IMG/VR virus record: IMGVR_UViG_3300044734_000048
Coordinates: 1 to 58,066 of that record
Reading direction: 5' to 3' (one strand)
Origin: a virus
DNA length: 58,066 bases
Part shown: positions 24,611 through 58,066 of the stretch, piece after piece
Position numbering within the stretch: the stretch's first letter is position 1
How the letters are laid out: each line of letters opens with the position of its first letter
Notes under the pieces: model-generated
The model's database searches: none
The model's input: only the letters and a program-made list of their open reading frames with translations
What the model was told of the DNA's origin: nothing
Translations under genes and position numbers: made by a program

Positions 24611-24810
24611 TGACGGGCGCGGAACTGAAAGCGCGACGCGAAAGGTTAGGGCTGAGCCAAACAGCCCTAGCCAATCTTTTAGGAACGACTCAAAACACGA
24701 TTTCTCGTTGGGAGCTTGGCACACTTCAAATCGAGAAATCACAGATGCTGGAATTGGCTTTGGAGGCACTAGAAAAACGTGGGACTCGCAACACAAAGCG
24801 GCGCGCATAG
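24610..24810 (+). CDS. XRE-family HTH regulator
   Basis: The 66-residue protein is almost entirely a helix-turn-helix: GAELKARRERLGLSQTALA, then LGTTQNTISRWELG, the classic Cro/CI recognition-helix pattern. It is coupled to the gene upstream and overlaps the transposase gene by 32 bases. It probably binds the AACGTGA palindrome at its own promoter and thereby also limits the transposase. Confidence 0.78.
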   Translation: MTGAELKARRERLGLSQTALANLLGTTQNTISRWELGTLQIEKSQMLELALEALEKRGTRNTKRRA

Positions 24811-25186
24811 CATTCACGCTCTCGCGTATCACTTGGTTTGGTGTGTCAAGTATCGCCACTCGATTCTGACTCACGAAATCGGAGATAGAGTCAAGGCGAT
24901 TATTGAAGACCTTGCCCTTGAACTCGGTTGCGAGATAATTGCTATCGAGACAGACGTTGACCACGTTCACATCGTTGTCAGGCTCAAGCACACGCACACG
25001 CTCTCGAAAATCGCCCACAGGTTCAAAGGCAGAACCGCTTACATGATTTTCAGAGAGTATCCGCAACTTAGAAATAGACTGTGGGGCGGCCATCTCTGGT
25101 CGCCCTCTTACTACGCTGCGACTGTAGGAGGCGCACCGCTTGAGACGATTAAGAAATATGTTGAAAGTCAACGTGAACATGAATAA
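24779..25186 (+). mobile_element. tnpA: IS200/IS605-type Y1 transposase gene (TnpA)
   Basis: The 135-residue protein shows the TnpA signatures: HSIHALAYHLVWCVKYR at the start, the HUH motif HVHIVV (about 61-66) and the catalytic Tyr in IKKYVESQ near the end. Such enzymes move single-stranded DNA. The only start (GTG) lies inside the HTH gene, because TAG blocks the frame just upstream. There is no TnpB. The right side has a hairpin and ATTCAC typical of such ends (25223-25246). A free left end cannot be seen, so this may be a captured transposase or an IS whose left end lies within or before the HTH gene. Confidence 0.8.
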
Positions 25187-43620: not shown

Positions 43621-44190
43621 TCATGACCCTCTGCTTGCCTGCCAGCACCTCATCAGAGTTTCAACTGCTCTATCCTTCGCGCCCGAATCGAAGTAAAACC
43701 ACAACAGGGTCAGGGCTGAATAGGCCGCACCGCATGCCTCGGTAAACTTGCCTTGCATGAAATAGACATCGGCTCTGGTCAGACGAGTCTCGCCTAAATT
43801 CGCATCATCGTTTGTCTGGCTGAAATACTCTTCGGCGTGGTCAAGAAATGCGTGAGCCTCTTCAAGCTGATTAAGGTCAACCAAGGCGTAAGCGATGTTG
43901 CACTCGATTGAAGCGCAGACTTGCCGCCCTTCCTCATCCGTTGGCTCTAGGCGCAACGCGGTCTCGTATTGCCTAATAGCCTCTACATTCCTTCCCAAAA
44001 GCCTGTACGTGCGCCCCAGGCCGCAATAGAAGTGCCTTCTGTACTTCGGCTCTGCTTTATCAAAGACGGGCTGTAGCCGTAAGTGTCTCCGTAGTGCCAG
44101 CTCATATTTGCCTTCGGCGCGAGCGGTGATGCACCGTCTGACAGAGCGGTTGAGCTTTAGCTCGACTTTGGTTTGGTTAATTACGTGCAT
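43621..44190 (-). CDS. TPR-repeat protein
   Basis: The 189-residue protein contains at least three tetratricopeptide units: CGLGRTYRLLGRNVEAIRQY, CNIAYALVDLNQLEEAHAFL and TRADVYFMQGKFTEACGAAY. It has no helix-turn-helix, membrane segment or enzyme motif. The start is uncertain (ATG 44190 or TTG 44244); neither has a clear binding site. It lies head to head with a small secreted protein gene 65 bp away. TPR proteins such as Rap and AimR sense peptides; whether this one does is unknown. Confidence 0.7.
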   Translation of the reverse strand: MHVINQTKVELKLNRSVRRCITARAEGKYELALRRHLRLQPVFDKAEPKYRRHFYCGLGRTYRLLGRNVEAIRQYETALRLEPTDEEGRQVCASIECNIAYALVDLNQLEEAHAFLDHAEEYFSQTNDDANLGETRLTRADVYFMQGKFTEACGAAYSALTLLWFYFDSGAKDRAVETLMRCWQASRGS

Positions 44191-47948: not shown

Positions 47949-48779
47949 TTATGCCGTCTCTCTTAAATCATCGAAGAAATCCGTTAGCTCGTTGACGAAC
48001 CTTTCTAGCTCGTCTCGACAAGACGCAAGATCGTCTCTGAAATTAAATTGCTCTTGTTGAGTCATTCCAGCGGAGAATGAAACGGCTCCGCCTTTTGTTT
48101 TAATTTGATAAATAACTTCCTGGATAGGTGATAGTTGGCTACGTTTACTAGGCTTTGGTAGTGGAGCTTTCTTAATTGATGAAATGTTTGAGCGTACTGT
48201 TTCTCTTTTCTTCTCAGGAAGAGAGTTGAGAGTCTTGGCTGTTTCGATAGCTTGCTTTTGTGGAGCGTCTTTTAGTTCTGGATAAGTTTCTACTGCTTTG
48301 ACGTGGGCTTTAGCGTTGTGAACAGTGGAGCGCGGGATGCCTACTCGCTCGGCTACCTTTTCCTCGCTGATGGCCTTCTCAGGTCTGCCGATTTTAGGGG
48401 TATCCGACTTTTCGTCAGACTTTGACGGAAATTCACTTTGGATAATCTTTTCAGCAACTTGCGTTAATCGGACTAAATTTTTAGAGACTTCAAAAGGTGT
48501 TAAATCTTTGCGCTGTAAATTCTCTTCTAATTCAATCTCGTGTCGCTCATCTTCGGTCAGATCGGAGTACGGGCGACAATCTATTTCAGTCCATCCGAGA
48601 CTTGTACAAGCGACTAGTCTTCTCTCACCTGCTACTAGATTATTTTTATCATCCACTATCAGGGGATGGAATAATCCGTACTTGGCGATGCTGGCGGCCA
48701 GAGCTTCGATATTGCCGAAGTCTTCTCTGCGGCGAGTGCCTACGTTTATATCGGAGACTGCGATTGATTGGACGTTCAC
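47949..48779 (-). CDS. ParB/Srx-domain protein
   Basis: The 276-residue protein has an N-terminal ParB-type domain with IEALAASIAKYGLFHPLIVD, LVAGERRLVACTSLGW and EIELEENLQRKDLTPFE. A helix-turn-helix (EEKVAERVGIPRSTVHNAKA) and a C-terminal helical region follow. In phages such proteins act in partition, transcription control or as nucleases. It overlaps the Cro-like gene by four bases, so it is the second gene of the leftward early operon. Confidence 0.75.
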   Translation of the reverse strand: MNVQSIAVSDINVGTRRREDFGNIEALAASIAKYGLFHPLIVDDKNNLVAGERRLVACTSLGWTEIDCRPYSDLTEDERHEIELEENLQRKDLTPFEVSKNLVRLTQVAEKIIQSEFPSKSDEKSDTPKIGRPEKAISEEKVAERVGIPRSTVHNAKAHVKAVETYPELKDAPQKQAIETAKTLNSLPEKKRETVRSNISSIKKAPLPKPSKRSQLSPIQEVIYQIKTKGGAVSFSAGMTQQEQFNFRDDLASCRDELERFVNELTDFFDDLRETA

Positions 48780-49012
48780 GCTGTTAGCCTTTCCTCGTCT
48801 TCAATGCTGGCAAAAGGGCGTCCGACCTCCGATACAGAAACGTCCAAGTATTTAGCTAACTTGATTCTGACTTCTGGATAGACGAATGGCTCACGGCGAT
48901 TAACAACTCGGCTTATGACGCCGGGCGTTGTTTTCCACTTGCGCGCCAGTTTCACAAAGTTGTCGCCGTTCTTCATTACAGAAATCTTGATGTCTAGCGG
49001 TGAAAGTGGCAT
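48776..49012 (-). CDS. Cro-like HTH repressor
   Basis: The 78-residue protein starts at ATG with a perfect AAAGGAG five bases upstream. The HTH is FVKLARKWKTTPGVISRVVN. The first gene transcribed from the leftward promoter, it stands divergent from the CI-type repressor gene, which is the lambdoid Cro position. Confidence 0.72.
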   Translation of the reverse strand: MPLSPLDIKISVMKNGDNFVKLARKWKTTPGVISRVVNRREPFVYPEVRIKLAKYLDVSVSEVGRPFASIEDEERLTA

Positions 49013-49054
49013 AGTCACTCCTTTATCTAGCCTGCTCTTGCAGGTGTAATCTAA

Positions 49055-49083
49055 GGATAATGCAACTAGGTTGCAATTGTCAA
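49055..49083 (-). promoter_or_regulatory. Leftward early promoter with repressor operator in the spacer
   Basis: On the minus strand TTGACA (49078-49083) and TTATCC (49055-49060) are 17 bp apart. The spacer contains the 15-bp palindrome TGCAAC-TAG-GTTGCA (49061-49075). The same palindrome occurs in the same place in the rightward promoter at 51809-51837, so both should be closed by the same repressor. Confidence 0.75.
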
Positions 49084-49095
49084 GAAGAAAATATT

Positions 49096-49938
49096 GTGTC
49101 TGAGAATTTGCCTCACAAATCAGGTAGGAAACGGCAACACAAGCCCGTATCGGAAGAGGCTGCACGGGTAGGCGCACGGATTACTCAAGCGCGCGGCAAA
49201 ACACCGCTCACGAAAGTAGAGCAGGACTTATCTATTTCGCACCAAGCTTTGTCGAAGATAGAAAGCGGTAGGTCTAACCCTAGCGATCCTAGAACCAAGC
49301 GAACGCTGATGCGTTTGGCAGAATATTATAGAGACGATTTTGATCTTGACTGGCTAACGCCCTACGCAAGCGGCAAAAAGCCAGCGCAAGATAAAAGACC
49401 AAAGGACAATCTTCTAAAGTTCCCTGACGCACAGCAGGTCAAGGCACTTCCTATTCCTATCATCGGACGGATCGCAGCCGGAGAGCCGATTGAAGCCATA
49501 GAGGAAGATAAAGATAAGGTTGTCTATATAGCCGAAACAGAGCTAGAAGGTATTAACAATCCTCGCGCGTTGCGCGTTGTAGGCGATAGCATGAAAGGTC
49601 TGTATATTTTGCACAATGACCTAGTTATCATCGGAGATAGCTCTATCTATCAAAATCGTATTGTTGCTGTGTATGTAATTGAGAACGGCAATTATTCCGG
49701 CACACTCAAGAGATGGAAGCGGAGAGGCAGAAAAGTTGAATTGCAGCCTGCTAATCCTAAATATAAATCCAAAACATTCACCTCACAGTCAAAGATAACA
49801 CTTGAGGTCTTTGGAGTAGTGTTCAAGCTACTGCGAAATTATGACTACTCAAGACCTTTAGACAGCGAGGCGTTTGGGGCGGCAGTTGGAGTACCGGGCG
49901 CAGAGGGAGCAAACGAGGATGACCTGTTTGTGGTGTAA
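49096..49938 (+). CDS. CI/LexA-type repressor with S24 autoprotease domain
   Basis: The start was set at GTG 49096; the ATG at 49060 lies inside the operator. The 280-residue protein has an N-terminal HTH (LTKVEQDLSISHQALSKIESG) and a linker. The S24 domain has Ala-Gly cleavage motif GRIAAGEPI and nucleophile GDSMKG, with a candidate Lys in TLKRWKRR. It should bind the TGCAAC palindromes and be inactivated during SOS. The last 20 bases overlap the PAS gene. Confidence 0.85.
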   Translation: MSENLPHKSGRKRQHKPVSEEAARVGARITQARGKTPLTKVEQDLSISHQALSKIESGRSNPSDPRTKRTLMRLAEYYRDDFDLDWLTPYASGKKPAQDKRPKDNLLKFPDAQQVKALPIPIIGRIAAGEPIEAIEEDKDKVVYIAETELEGINNPRALRVVGDSMKGLYILHNDLVIIGDSSIYQNRIVAVYVIENGNYSGTLKRWKRRGRKVELQPANPKYKSKTFTSQSKITLEVFGVVFKLLRNYDYSRPLDSEAFGAAVGVPGAEGANEDDLFVV

Positions 49939-50347
49939 TAAAGAATTAAAAGTCGGAGAGTTTGAGCGGGGGAATCTTTGTTCGGAATGTGAGCAGGTTT
50001 CTACAGGGATACCGAATTTATCAAGTGAACAGCTTGACTTGCTGCCCTTTGGGTTAATCGAACTTGATAAGACCGGAACTATTGTTGCATTCAACGAATC
50101 CGAAGAAAGGTTATCGCTCCGATCTAAAGATGAGGTTATCGGAAAGAACTTCTTTGCCGACGTAGCACCGTGCGCGGATGTGCAAGACTACAAAGGTCGG
50201 TTTGATGAATTTCTGAGAGGGTCAAAGCTATCGGAACAGTTCGATTATATTTATTACTTTGGCGCTCGTGCTGTGAAGGTTCAGCTTACTTTCCTGCGCG
50301 TCAATCAACGCCTTGCTCTTGTTTTAAGTAAAAGAAATGAACGATAA
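49919..50347 (+). CDS. Zinc-ribbon + photoactive-yellow-protein-like PAS protein
   Basis: The 142-residue protein has an N-terminal zinc ribbon (C3, C6, C21, C24) joined to a PAS domain (about 42-138) that aligns without gaps in its core to photoactive yellow protein. VIGKNFFADVAPC carries C85 at the place of PYP Cys69, the p-coumarate attachment residue. E62, S66 and R68 stand at PYP Glu46, Thr50 and Arg52; F58 replaces Tyr42. The gene overlaps the repressor gene by 20 bases, so the two are co-translated. A sensor that modulates the repressor is inferred; chromophore binding is not shown. Confidence 0.8.
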   Translation: MTCLWCNKELKVGEFERGNLCSECEQVSTGIPNLSSEQLDLLPFGLIELDKTGTIVAFNESEERLSLRSKDEVIGKNFFADVAPCADVQDYKGRFDEFLRGSKLSEQFDYIYYFGARAVKVQLTFLRVNQRLALVLSKRNER

Positions 50348-50360
50348 AGGAGTCCTCACA

Positions 50361-51107
50361 ATGAAGAGATTGGTAACGCTATTTATAGCAATCTCAATCT
50401 GTAGCTTGTTCGTCTTTGCTCAAGAGCAGGAACATCCGGCAGTTGCCATTAACTTTAAGGACTTCAATAAAAAGCCGATCAACGGCACGCTTGTCAGTTT
50501 GGACTTGACGCAAATTTCAGTTGAGACGGATGATATTCACCACCTCGGACTAAAGATTGATTTACGACAAGTGGCAAGTATCATCTTCTTCGATATTCCT
50601 CTTACTCTCAAAACTGATAAGCCAATTTCCGATAGCAACTCGAAAATGGTTACTTGCGGTGCAACATCTGTAAAGAGGCCGGAACTGCGCGGGCTTAGGC
50701 TGGGGATGAGCATCAGCGACGTGAAGACGGCAAAGCCCGAACTGCGCCTCGTCATTGATGCCCCTGATAGCGTAGGCCAGCAGACCGCTTTCGTTGTAGG
50801 CGCGGAAGAAGGAGTCCGTTCACTTGATTTAGAGTTTTTAGATGGTAGCCTTACATCCATCAAAGTAACCTATGACCATTCTGTTTCGTGGAATAATGAG
50901 CAAGAATTTCTTTCACGATTAGCAGACGCTTTCGGATTGCCTACGCCCTGGAATGGCTATTTGAAGTGTGAGGGCTTGAACTTAGTTGCTGACTATAGCT
51001 ACGGGATTGCGCCGAAAATCCGCTTGTACGACCCAAACTCTAGCCAAATAATTAAGAAGCGGCGCGCGGATACTGAAGAGAAGAAACGGCGGGAATTTAA
51101 GCCTTAG
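50361..51107 (+). CDS. Secreted protein in the immunity operon
   Basis: The start is at ATG with AAAGGAG eight bases upstream. The 248-residue protein has a signal peptide (MKRLVTLFIAISICSLFVFA) and a beta-rich mature region (NFKDFNKKPINGTLVSLDLT, GLRLGMSISDVKTAKPEL). The GLRLGMS...V segment resembles small repeat folds seen in exported proteins. Expressed in lysogens, it is a lysogenic-conversion candidate. Confidence 0.62.
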   Translation: MKRLVTLFIAISICSLFVFAQEQEHPAVAINFKDFNKKPINGTLVSLDLTQISVETDDIHHLGLKIDLRQVASIIFFDIPLTLKTDKPISDSNSKMVTCGATSVKRPELRGLRLGMSISDVKTAKPELRLVIDAPDSVGQQTAFVVGAEEGVRSLDLEFLDGSLTSIKVTYDHSVSWNNEQEFLSRLADAFGLPTPWNGYLKCEGLNLVADYSYGIAPKIRLYDPNSSQIIKKRRADTEEKKRREFKP

Positions 51108-52899: not shown

Positions 52900-53766
52900 A
52901 TGAAAACAATCACAATTAAAAATCAATCCGAACTTGATGCCCTGCCAGATCGCTTTGAAGAGTACACCGTAATTCATATTAAGGGTACACAGAGGGTGAT
53001 TGTCCGACGGGCATGGGAGAACTCGTCTGTCGTGGCACGGGGGAACTCGTCTGTCGTGGCACGGGAGAACTCGTCTGTCGAGGCATGGGAGAACTCGTCT
53101 GTCGTGGCATGGGGGAACTCGTCTGTCGTGGCATGGGGGAACTCGTCTGTCGTGGCATGGGGGAACTCGTCTGTCGTGGCACGGGGGAACTCGTCTGTCG
53201 AGGCATGGGAGAACTCGTCTGTCGAGGCATGGGGGGACTCGTCTGTCGAGGCACGGGGGAACGTTTGCGTTCGTCTCTATTCCGACGCCGCTACTGTTTT
53301 ATTGTTCGCCTTCGCCGTTTGCTTTGCGATGGTCAAAGCGAAGATTCAAAAGAAATCAAAGACCTGCACTGTGATCGTTCCCACCATCGCAGAAGGGCTA
53401 GAGGGTTGGCTAGAAAACAACGCTGTAGCACCGAGCGGTAAATCTATAATCCTCTACAAACGAGTTTCCAAAGATTTCAAAACCCAAGAAGGGGCTGAAA
53501 GAGAAACCCTGTGGGCGATTGGCGCAACACTAAAGCACCACAGCCCTGATCTTGAAAGCGCAGAATGTGGTGGCGGTAAATTTCACTTCTGCTCACGTCC
53601 CTACTTCTGCGATGAGTTTCGCTCAACCGCTGGCGATAAACACATAGCCTGCCAAGTGCCACTCAAGGCGTTGTACGCATGGCCGCGCCCGACCTATCCG
53701 CACAAGATCGGCGGCACAGAGGCGAAGGTCTTATATGTGTGTGATCGCTTCGGAAAGAAAAACTAA
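52900..53766 (+). CDS. NSSV octapeptide-repeat protein with C-terminal DUF7666-like domain
   Basis: The start was set at ATG with GGAGG upstream. The 288-residue protein has a short N-domain (KNQSELDALPDRFEEYTVI), ten perfect-length octapeptides of the form A-[WR]-[EG]-[ND]-S-S-V-[VE] (residues 38-117), then a hydrophobic segment and a C-terminal domain with SIILYKRVSKDFKTQEG and ESAECGGGKFHF, typical of DUF7666-type phage proteins. The repeats should form a small beta-helix. The repeat number may vary by slippage. Confidence 0.7.
   Translation: MKTITIKNQSELDALPDRFEEYTVIHIKGTQRVIVRRAWENSSVVARGNSSVVARENSSVEAWENSSVVAWGNSSVVAWGNSSVVAWGNSSVVARGNSSVEAWENSSVEAWGDSSVEARGNVCVRLYSDAATVLLFAFAVCFAMVKAKIQKKSKTCTVIVPTIAEGLEGWLENNAVAPSGKSIILYKRVSKDFKTQEGAERETLWAIGATLKHHSPDLESAECGGGKFHFCSRPYFCDEFRSTAGDKHIACQVPLKALYAWPRPTYPHKIGGTEAKVLYVCDRFGKKN
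53011..53262 (+). repeat. 24-bp tandem repeat (10.5 copies)
   Basis: Unit GCATGGGGGAACTCGTCTGTCGTG is repeated in frame from 53011, with variation almost only at three positions (T/C, A/G, T/A) that switch W/R, E/G and V/E. All reading frames stay open across it, which explains several long antisense frames. Confidence 0.9.
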
Positions 53767-55021: not shown

Positions 55022-55306
55022 ATGAGCGAACTATTAAATGAAAAGTTACTTGAACAGAAGATGCGGGCTATCGCAGAAGAGGTTTATCGTGAGAGCGCGT
55101 TTATACATCCGCCAGCGCCCGTTGCGAAGAAACTTCTGACGGCTCAAGAGGTCAGCGAAATCACGGGCTGGCACATCAATCACATCTACAGACTTATTCG
55201 ACAGAACCGACTACCCAAAGTGCCTAACCTGGGGCGGGTTGTTCGCTTTGACCCGGAAGTAATTGAGAAAATCAAGGAAAATGGTTTGCAAGACTTGGCG
55301 GCATGA
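55022..55306 (+). CDS. xis: Excisionase-like MerR-type HTH protein
   Basis: The 94-residue protein contains KKLLTAQEVSEITGWHINHI then YRLIRQNRLPKVPNLGRVVR, the HTH_17/excisionase pattern. AAGGAG lies before the ATG. It lies 16 bp upstream of the integrase gene in the same operon, so a directionality factor is likely. Confidence 0.75.
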   Translation: MSELLNEKLLEQKMRAIAEEVYRESAFIHPPAPVAKKLLTAQEVSEITGWHINHIYRLIRQNRLPKVPNLGRVVRFDPEVIEKIKENGLQDLAA

Positions 55307-55322
55307 AAGATAATCCACGCTC

Positions 55323-56456
55323 ATGATAAAGCGTCTTGGAAAAGAGAAATACCTGGTCAGAGTGTCGCTTGGCACGATCAATGGCAAGGTCAAACTCCAC
55401 AATCGAACCATCTATGGCAAGCGCGAGGAAGCCGAATCCTATGAGCGCAAGATTATCTCCCAACGTAAACAAGGACTGCCGATCACACCAACCAAGCTAA
55501 CTCTTGAGGTTTATCTAAAAAGGTGGCTTGATAATCGCATCTCCAAGAAAGTGATTCGCCCGAACACGGCAGAAGAGTACGAGAATGTTCTAACACGTTA
55601 TGTCATTCCGCGATGCGGCTCAACTAAATTAGCTGACATCCGTTCTTCTCATGTAGAAGACGTGATGGAATCCATGACCGAGAAAGGCTTAAGTCCTAAT
55701 ACGATTCGCCATTGCGTCACGGTCTGGCACTCAGCCTTGAAACGAGCTATCAAGCAGGGATTGATTCACGCCAATCCGATAGACGCGGTAGAACTTCCGG
55801 CCAAACAGCGACCACAGGTTCGAGCGTTTAATCGAGATGAAGCATTGAAGTTTTTAGATAGCTCGCGGGAAGACCGCTACCATGTTCTTTTTAACCTTGC
55901 CCTCTATGCCGGGATGAGGCCGGAGGAATTGGTAGGACTTCAGAGAGCGAATGTTGATCTCAAGGCTTCTATTATTAAAGTCAGAACCGTTATTGTTTGG
56001 CTCAAAGGCTCTCGCTGGGAATTTTCGACACCTAAAACCAAGCGAGGCTATAGAGATATTCCCATTCCGAGATTCGTCTCTAATCTATTAAAGGAACACA
56101 TGCGCCAGCAATCGGAGCAGAGCATGAAGGTCAGGCGGTTCTACCGGGACGATCTTGACTTGGTTTTCGCAGACCGTCTTGGGCTTCCCCTCAGATATGA
56201 GCATATCAATGAAGACCACATTAACCCGATCTGCGCTCTTGCGGAACTAGGGCACGCCAGCCTCTACACCTTTCGTCACACGTTTGCCTCCCTACTGTTA
56301 GAAGCCGGAGAGAATGTCAAGGTAGTAAGTGAAATGTTGGGACATGCCAGCGTCGTTATCACAATGGATGTATATCAGCATGTCTTACCTTCTATCAGCG
56401 AAGGCGCTAGTCGTAAGCTCGAAAAACTGTTGGAAGTCTCAGCACCTTTGCACTAA
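55323..56456 (+). CDS. int: Tyrosine integrase
   Basis: The 377-residue protein has an N-terminal arm-binding domain (YLVRVSLGTINGKVKLHNRT), a SAM-like core-binding domain (EVYLKRWLDNRISKKVIRPN) and a catalytic domain with Arg in YAGMRPEELVGL, Lys in TPKTKRGYRDIPI, FRHTFASLLLEAG (the first His of HxxR is Tyr) and LGHASVVITMDVYQHV with the nucleophile Tyr. It is the last prophage gene, so the attachment site should follow. Confidence 0.92.
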   Translation: MIKRLGKEKYLVRVSLGTINGKVKLHNRTIYGKREEAESYERKIISQRKQGLPITPTKLTLEVYLKRWLDNRISKKVIRPNTAEEYENVLTRYVIPRCGSTKLADIRSSHVEDVMESMTEKGLSPNTIRHCVTVWHSALKRAIKQGLIHANPIDAVELPAKQRPQVRAFNRDEALKFLDSSREDRYHVLFNLALYAGMRPEELVGLQRANVDLKASIIKVRTVIVWLKGSRWEFSTPKTKRGYRDIPIPRFVSNLLKEHMRQQSEQSMKVRRFYRDDLDLVFADRLGLPLRYEHINEDHINPICALAELGHASLYTFRHTFASLLLEAGENVKVVSEMLGHASVVITMDVYQHVLPSISEGASRKLEKLLEVSAPLH

Positions 56457-56845: not shown

Positions 56846-58066
56846 ATGAATAATCGCTTCTCCCGCTTTATGACAGCCCTTGTCCTGGCCCTTAGTCTGT
56901 GGACGAGCGCTATCAACGCCGTTGCTGTTCCGGCTCGTAGTCAGCAACAGGATCAGCAGACGACCGCAGCGCAACAGGATTCTAAAAATAAGCAAGACAA
57001 CAAGACGACGCAGACTGCCGCTCCTGCTCCGCCGAGCAACGGCAACGGCAAGCCGCTCGCACCCGATGAAGACCCCGCGCTCATAGGCAAGCGCAAGATC
57101 AACGGCGGCTTCTTCTCGTGGATGGCAGGCGGGATGGAGAAAGAGGTCGCGCTGGGTCGCTACCTGGCAGCAGAGATAGACAGAGAGGCGAAGTTCATAG
57201 ACGACCCTGTGATTACGGAGTATGTCAACCGTGTAGGCCAGAACATCGTTCTACATTCGGACGCCAAAGTGCCTTTCACCATCAAGGTGATTGACACCGA
57301 TGAAGTCAACGCCTTTGCGCTGCCGGGCGGATTCTTCTACGTCAACAAGGGATTGATTCTGGCCGCAGACAACGAGGCGGAACTCGCGGGCGTGATGGCG
57401 CACGAGATTGCCCACGTCGCTGCGCGCCACGCTATGGAGAACCAGGCCAAGGCCACGCTCGCACAGTATGGACTGCTTGCCGGTTCGATCTTCCTGGGCG
57501 GCATTCCCGGACTAATCGTCAACAACGCGGGGCCTTTCGCCGCGCTGCTGGGCTTTATGAAGTTTAGCCGGAGTGCGGAGTCTGAGGCAGATAAGCTGGG
57601 CGTGCAGTATCTCTACGCAGCCGGTTACGACCCGAACGCGCTGGCGACGATGTTTGAGAAGCTATCGGCGCAGAATAAGAAGAAGCCCGGCACTATGTCC
57701 AAGCTCTTCGCCTCGCACCCGCAGCCACCGGAGCGGCGCGCTGCTTCGCTCTCGCTCGTGGCGCGTTTCCCGGAGCGCGATGAGTACATGATTAGCACTT
57801 CCGAGTTTCAGAAGGTCAAGGCTCGATTGATGAGACTGTCTAACGCGCGTGCCACGACAGCCGGTAATATCGCATCCGACGATGATGGGACGCCCGGACG
57901 CCCGACGCTCAAGCGCCGCCAGCCGCCTGCGCCTGACTCAACCGGAACTTCCGACAGCGGCGAGACTCCATCCGAGCAGAAGCCGTCGGACCCGCCGAAG
58001 CTGAAGCACAACACGAGTGATGCGCCGACGACCCAACCTTCGACGCAGCCTAAGTCAACGCCTTAA
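56846..58066 (+). CDS. Secreted M48-family zinc metalloprotease
   Basis: The start was set at ATG with GGAGG nine bases upstream. The 406-residue protein has a signal peptide (MTALVLALSLWTSAINAVA region), a Gln-rich disordered part, then the M48 domain: KEVALGRYLAAEIDREAKF, ALPGGFFYVNKGLI, the zinc motif HEIAHVAARH and the third ligand region ESEADKLGVQYL. The Pro/Ser/Thr-rich C-terminal tail is disordered. Relatives such as BepA/LoiP act in periplasmic protein quality control. This type, with GMEKEVALG and SDAKVPFTIKVID, is common in Acidobacteriota. Confidence 0.88.
   Translation: MNNRFSRFMTALVLALSLWTSAINAVAVPARSQQQDQQTTAAQQDSKNKQDNKTTQTAAPAPPSNGNGKPLAPDEDPALIGKRKINGGFFSWMAGGMEKEVALGRYLAAEIDREAKFIDDPVITEYVNRVGQNIVLHSDAKVPFTIKVIDTDEVNAFALPGGFFYVNKGLILAADNEAELAGVMAHEIAHVAARHAMENQAKATLAQYGLLAGSIFLGGIPGLIVNNAGPFAALLGFMKFSRSAESEADKLGVQYLYAAGYDPNALATMFEKLSAQNKKKPGTMSKLFASHPQPPERRAASLSLVARFPERDEYMISTSEFQKVKARLMRLSNARATTAGNIASDDDGTPGRPTLKRRQPPAPDSTGTSDSGETPSEQKPSDPPKLKHNTSDAPTTQPSTQPKSTP

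Follow-up and report, generated by a model that had tools for sequence, protein, structure and literature searches.

A photoactive yellow protein family member encoded beside the repressor gene in six phage genomes, a candidate sensor in prophage immunity

Organisation of the immunity region

The stretch of viral DNA analysed here, referred to as the window, is 58,066 nucleotides in length (IMG/VR virus record IMGVR_UViG_3300044734_000048). At 49 kb it carries a gene for a LexA/CI-type repressor composed of a putative HTH and an S24 peptidase domain (49096-49938, plus strand, GTG start, 280 amino acids), and inside the end of this gene starts a second open reading frame on the same strand (49919-50347, ATG start, 142 amino acids), 20 bases being common to both. 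The latter encodes a zinc-ribbon-like head (residues 1-25) joined to a PAS domain of the photoactive yellow protein (PYP) type, and we call the protein ZnR-PYP. The S24 domain of the repressor aligns to LexA including the Ala-Gly cleavage site (Ala128-Gly129), Ser165 and Lys205, and the N-terminal domain matches HTH_3 with an E-value of 0.00087, which is below the curated cut-off. Divergently to the repressor gene, a Cro-like small HTH protein is encoded (48776-49012, minus strand), being 59% identical to the protein at the same place in another phage, L088, followed by a ParB-like protein (47949-48779, minus strand). Both genes (47949-49012 of the window) are kept in L088, and the phage L086 keeps at least the Cro-like gene.

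Between the repressor and the Cro-like gene we found a putative operator, the inverted repeat AATGCAAC-tag-GTTGCAAT with one mismatch (49059-49077), which lies in the spacer of a leftward promoter-like site, TTGACA-18-TATCCT (49054-49083, minus strand); this site is a consensus match only (10/12), such matches being no more numerous in the region than in shuffled sequences. The upstream gene is a real repressor and the region around it a real immunity region. Downstream of the ZnR-PYP gene follows a gene for a predicted secreted protein (50361-51107, plus strand), which is not conserved in the other phages described below. Around the overlap of the repressor and ZnR-PYP genes no RNA structure was detected (z 0.29). 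As the ZnR-PYP gene is co-directional with and overlapping or adjacent to the repressor gene, it is most likely expressed in the lysogen.

ZnR-PYP is a member of the PYP family

The head of ZnR-PYP reads CLWC...LCSEC and contains the four-cysteine motif C3-x2-C6 ... C21-x2-C24 (49925-49990, plus strand), all four cysteines being invariant in 15/15 aligned ZnR-PYP proteins. On this sequence pattern the head may bind zinc, and the corresponding head of the protein from the phage L089 matches zinc-ribbon models with scores below the cut-off. The PAS domain starts at about residue 35, and a search for an HTH domain within the 142 amino acids gave none.

Comparing ZnR-PYP to all PDB sequences using phmmer resulted in an E-value of 1.9e-19 for 1otd, gap-free over 99 residues (query 25-123), and of 4.4e-19 for the PYP domain of Ppr; 33/33 strong matches are PYP, Ppr-PYP or PYP-derived tags, and the next family follows at an E-value of 0.41. 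The NCBIfam model photo_yellow (TIGR02373) matches with an E-value of 1.4e-26 and 93 bits, under its equivalog cut-off of 143, a model which according to the 2022 survey covers only 20% of PYP homologues (PMC9664959). Pfam PAS_4 and PAS are above their cut-offs. An AlphaFold2 model based on a 50-row alignment (pLDDT 82, pTM 0.74) gave PYP structures as the top 39 Foldseek matches in the PDB (2phy: E-value 2.8e-12, rmsd 1.6), the Y42F mutant 1f9i being among the first three, and a viral structure library returned generic PAS proteins only, with 10-18% identity. By sequence, profile and predicted fold, ZnR-PYP is a PYP-family PAS protein rather than a generic PAS protein.

These results bear out an earlier note made from the sequence alone, which had described 142 residues with a zinc ribbon and a PAS domain, the 20-base overlap with the repressor gene and a gap-free alignment to PYP, had proposed structure prediction, and was right in all details that we checked. 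Its residue mapping holds as well: Cys85 (codon 50171-50173, plus strand) is at the position of the chromophore cysteine Cys69, the codons 58 to 62 (50090-50104, plus strand) span Phe58 at PYP Tyr42 to Glu62 at PYP Glu46 in the PDB and family alignments, and Ser66 and Arg68 correspond to positions 50 and 52. Residue numbering is based on a sequence that we take to be that of Halorhodospira PYP, also used as its row in the tree below, and which agrees with the PDB alignments over the overlap.

The pairing with a repressor gene recurs in five further phages

Scans of 2.9 million viral contigs revealed five further phage records with a head-plus-PYP protein (L086-L090). Four IMG/VR contigs were found by a DNA motif for G[KR]NFFx[DE][VI]APC and the fifth by profile-type scans, while a looser motif scan of the viral contigs added no phage with such a protein. 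A single-sequence scan of the viral contigs (query P0001) gave no match, the phages being picked up by motif and alignment searches instead. Among 50,697 phage records there was no other PYP match apart from one in a 735-kb record of an 'uncultured phage', which we rejected as a histidine kinase with several PAS domains that lacks the APC cysteine. Matches in plasmids were bacterial PYPs, 'PAS' or 'phosphonate transporter' proteins, and the contigs of additional motif matches (L114 and L116-L120) do not encode the head-plus-PYP protein; these were also set aside.

The five other phage proteins have the same architecture and are 29-59% identical to ZnR-PYP of the window. In 6/6 phage records the gene is the next one after a repressor-type gene on the same strand, the two genes overlapping in four records (by 20, 11, 4 and 4 bases) and being separated in the other two (by 25 and 9 bases). 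The repressor-type proteins themselves differ. While the window has a putative HTH joined to S24, L086 encodes an HTH with an M78 (ImmA/IrrE-like) peptidase, L087 an S24 domain fused to a short head that weakly matches Arc/RHH, L088 an HTH-like protein without S24 that is related to the N-terminal half of the window repressor, L089 an S24 domain with a head lacking an assigned family, and L090 an Arc-like protein. The repressors of L087 (7373-8002) and L089 (7333-7995) thus carry the LexA-type S24 domain on a head other than a recognised HTH, and S24 of L089 is 42% identical to that of the window repressor. Operator-like palindromes are present in five of the six phages, window included, each being different (in the other phages ACTTAAC-tag-GTTAAGT, ATTGCA-t-TGCAAT, TGGTTATT-a-AATAACCA and GTATACAG...CCGTATAC); the same search in L090 found none. 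The different repressor types show that the pairing outlasted swaps of the repressor, and the differences in repressors and operators together show DNA-binding heads, S24 domains and operators to be reshuffled around a PYP protein that is retained.

Codon positions 1/2/3 of the ZnR-PYP genes of the window and L086 are 65/78/35% identical, other pairs being alike. Third positions near saturation in combination with a conserved protein indicate that ZnR-PYP is under strong purifying selection. The recurrence with the same architecture and at the same position in five other phages is more than chance. The repressor-PAS pair was thus found by the search of phage genomes that the earlier note had proposed, and being tied to a repressor gene in 6/6 phage records makes the link with phage immunity more than a guess. 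This adjacency supports the part of the earlier claim concerning immunity, whereas the part concerning light and a chromophore is weakened by drifted pocket residues and histidase-only lyases, as detailed below.

The position of the gene also fits the main alternative explanation, according to which ZnR-PYP would be a lysogenic-conversion or exclusion gene transcribed in the lysogen from the repressor promoter. As a phage copy of the Acidobacteriota zinc-ribbon-PYP signalling protein it would alter host behaviour or exclude other phages, with no feedback on the repressor. Accessory genes of this kind are classically located immediately behind the repressor, as rexAB is behind lambda cI, and the gene is retained while the repressor type changes; moreover, outside phages its closest relatives are chromosomal genes of hosts that do not lie near repressors. 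However, defence-system models gave nothing relevant and matched no known defence family, and the tight translational overlap in 4/6 records and absence of any other location in phages argue for a link with the repressor itself. We regard the accessory-gene explanation as rather unlikely.

Origin in Acidobacteriota

One scan of 84,980 species genomes revealed head-plus-PYP proteins in chromosomes of Acidobacteriota, among them Holophagae (Geothrix). Further ones came from surveying 396 genomes of Acidobacteriota. Where inspected, their neighbours are housekeeping genes or genes of unknown function and not repressors. These chromosomal proteins (L006-L014, L020, L103, L104, L111) have the same architecture as the phage protein and, with 35-42% identity to it, are its nearest relatives outside phages, but they keep Tyr42 and Phe96 unlike the phage proteins. 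We found them described nowhere in the literature searched.

In a tree computed from the PAS core (head left out, 115 columns, few characterised PYPs included, fine branching not resolved), the six phage proteins and 14/16 chromosomal head-plus-PYP proteins form one group with a support of 96/84, separate from the group holding Halorhodospira PYP. The phylogeny against PYPs proposed earlier consequently places the window protein with the Acidobacteriota ZnR-PYPs. A single origin of the six phage proteins has a support of 81/21 in this tree, or 93/76 when the long-branched L090 is omitted, and they may descend from one capture event.

Related arrangements occur in genomes of Blastocatellia. Two of these (L153, L155) have adjacent genes for a zinc-ribbon protein and a Cys-less PYP-like PAS protein, i.e. 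the parts of the phage protein split. Seven loci (L156-L161, L165) encode a PYP-like PAS protein with APF for APC beside Crp-family regulators and mostly also response regulators; this APF replacement led us to leave them out of the PYP set, and they are possibly PYP-derived sensors without the chromophore cysteine.

The window is a prophage of a probable Blastocatellia-type host

At its right end, the window encodes an excisionase/AlpA-like HTH_17 protein (55022-55306, plus strand) and a tyrosine integrase (55323-56456, plus strand), followed by an M48 peptidase gene (56846-58066, plus strand) that is host chromosomal DNA beyond the prophage end. As the terminase gave only distant matches in Acidobacteriota, we traced the host by this flanking gene. 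The M48 protein, whose closest relatives are in Blastocatellia, is 64-68% identical to proteins of five genomes of the Blastocatellia sample (G458, G088, G386, G039, G207), and the same genomes are rich in relatives of an L086 TPR protein, a family found in 30/118 Blastocatellia genomes versus 0/81 Holophagae. The M48 gene marks the right end of the prophage and puts the host inside Blastocatellia or close to it, and the order of integrase and M48 gene together with the distribution of the TPR family indicates that the window is a prophage residing in an Acidobacteriota host of Blastocatellia type.

In Blastocatellia a single genome can have as many as 8 scored copies of the TPR family, and TPR proteins are encoded near the immunity region in the window (43621-44190), L086 (3589-4560), L087 (5222-5839) and L089 (4630-5478). 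The window further contains a transposase-like ORF of the IS200/IS605 type within the structural region of the prophage (24779-25186), and an ORF with tandem NSSVVA(R/W)(E/G) repeats and a non-repetitive tail (52900-53766).

Pocket residues and the question of light

The PYP family is defined by homology and the presence of Cys69, as given in the survey by Xing, Gumerov and Zhulin 2022 (PMC9664959). The relatives of the window protein are the reverse of an unrelated PAS group lacking a conserved cysteine, which the earlier note had named as an outcome that would refute its claim: Cys69 and Glu46 are invariant in 94/94 PYP-type sequences compared, 6/6 phages included, and Phe62, Ala67 and Pro68 are likewise invariant in this set. 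Other pocket positions have changed in the phages. Position 42 is Phe in five of them and Val in L090; position 50 is Ser in all five Phe42 phages and Ala in L090; Arg52 is present in the window only and lost in the five others; position 96, Phe in PYP, is Tyr in 6/6; and Met100 and Trp119 are lost. The combination of Phe/Val42 and Tyr96 occurs in 0/88 other sequences of the set, the phages being one lineage and perhaps one event. Ser or Thr at position 50 is present in 10/10 Phe42 sequences versus 47/77 Tyr42 ones (p about 0.01, uncorrected for kinship).

The drift at positions 42, 52, 96 and 100 would fit a protein that keeps the PYP fold and has lost sensing, acting in the repressor complex as a chaperone or structural partner. 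An unchanged pocket core of Glu46, Phe62, Ala67, Pro68 and Cys69 in proteins sharing 29-59% overall identity with that of the window is, however, not what is expected of a dead pocket, making this explanation improbable.

The strongest reading in the earlier note was that of a true blue-light photoreceptor carrying p-coumarate on Cys85 and coupling prophage induction to light. Conservation of Cys69 and Glu46 in 6/6 phages is in line with this, as is the appearance of the Y42F mutant 1f9i among the best structural matches. Furthermore, Y42F occurs naturally in about 9% of PYPs, where a hydrogen bond of Thr50 can serve as replacement (PMC9664959, PMC12826048), and all five Phe42 phages have Ser50. 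Against it stand the exchange of Phe96 to Tyr in 6/6, the loss of Trp119 and Met100, of Arg52 in five phages, the presence of Val42 and Ala50 in L090, and the position of the phage proteins in the tree, outside the group to which Halorhodospira PYP, characterised as photoactive, belongs.

The supply of the chromophore has to be considered as well. Where the motif was readable, aromatic lyases in Geothrix-type and Blastocatellia genomes are of the histidase type (Ser-His, SHACG/SHAAG) only, no lyase of the tyrosine-ammonia-lyase type being found in these relatives of the likely host, and the search for an aromatic lyase in the six phages gave none. In the PYP-bearing Halomonas, Idiomarina and Pseudomonas, the histidase is accompanied by a second aromatic lyase, which is of FHGCG type; Marinospirillum, another PYP bacterium of the sample, has no such second lyase. 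With relatives of the likely host showing only histidase-type lyases, it looks unlikely that the host produces p-coumarate by the usual route. According to Dohmen et al. 2025, tyrosine ammonia lyase genes are rarely present in pyp operons and uptake of p-coumarate from outside is possible (PMC12826048). Taking both sides together, we consider the photoreceptor explanation improbable. The same low standing applies to its more specific form, a light-gated lysogeny switch in which a blue-light PYP would be made with the repressor, its pocket retuned by Phe42, Ser50 and Tyr96 and the hydroxycinnamate derived from plant matter. Due to the pocket changes and histidase-only lyases we keep light as a minority reading of the input, a covalent or non-covalent small-molecule or thiol signal being more likely.

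Discussion

The best reading of these data is that ZnR-PYP is a co-regulator sensing a signal beside the repressor, with light as one possible input. We propose, with a probability of roughly 0.45, that a PYP-family sensor from the Acidobacteriota ZnR-PYP family was built into a phage immunity operon and modulates prophage repression. According to this model, temperate phages of Blastocatellia-type Acidobacteriota took the gene from the chromosomal zinc-ribbon-PYP family into their immunity operon, and in the lysogen ZnR-PYP would be made together with the repressor. The PAS pocket with its reactive Cys85 and buried Glu62 would take up the signal, either a covalently bound hydroxycinnamate-type ligand, with or without the use of light, or another thiol-reactive or phenolic molecule. 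The signalling state of PYP is partly unfolded. By analogy, occupancy of the pocket may change the head or the exposed N-terminal region in ZnR-PYP, and the state of the pocket would be passed on via the zinc-ribbon head to a partner, setting prophage repression up or down. As the repressor folds differ, the partner might be something common to all hosts, such as a host protein or RNA polymerase; alternatively, each repressor and its PYP may have co-evolved.

Several observations weigh against this sensor model. The model requires the PYPs of the various phages to act together with repressors of unlike fold, accessory genes expressed in the lysogen are often what lies behind a repressor, the chromosomal sisters are not located beside repressors, and only six phage records, perhaps from one capture event, are available. 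In its favour, a phage PAS sensor setting lysis-lysogeny is known from phage VP882. Our data suggest that dormant viruses with this pairing read an undescribed signal, light or a small molecule. If true, a new input would join the signals for dormant phages, i.e. DNA damage, arbitrium peptides and quorum-sensing molecules, and the domain family reading it would be one that is known above all for sensing light and has so far been reported from bacteria only.

The pairing of PYP with a repressor is not reported in the open literature searched (PYP with prophage, bacteriophage or Acidobacteria, and phage PAS domains), and the main text of two PYP surveys (PMC9664959, PMC12826048) makes no mention of phage, zinc or repressor. 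This is consistent with the statement of the earlier note that no PYP-like protein had been described in a phage immunity operon. Among known systems, rexAB and other genes behind cI resemble ZnR-PYP in position and expected expression in the lysogen, no sequence relation being recognised. The upstream gene of the window is one of the LexA/CI-type S24 repressors and ordinary apart from the linked PYP gene; differing from ordinary S24 repressors, related phages join a 42%-identical S24 domain to a different head. VqmA of phage VP882 and its relatives, also phage-encoded PAS sensors, are the closest precedent in function and can be compared in the way they work only: VqmA steers lysis-lysogeny on a small molecule, carries a DNA-binding domain of its own and switches on the antirepressor gene qtip (PMC12802170, PMC8284805), while ZnR-PYP has no HTH and its gene lies inside the repressor operon. 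With the PYP family, finally, the window protein shares the fold and a gap-free alignment, keeping Cys69, Glu46, Asn43, Gly29, Gly59, Phe62, Phe63, Ala67 and Pro68, whereas the phage proteins differ by Phe or Val42, Tyr96, the loss of Trp119 and Met100, the added four-Cys head and their presence in phage genomes. Many pyp genes adjoin a regulator gene as ZnR-PYP does, and the phage pairing offers a way into the question of the partner proteins of PYPs, for which the repressors are obvious candidates, their genes being fixed neighbours in six phage genomes.
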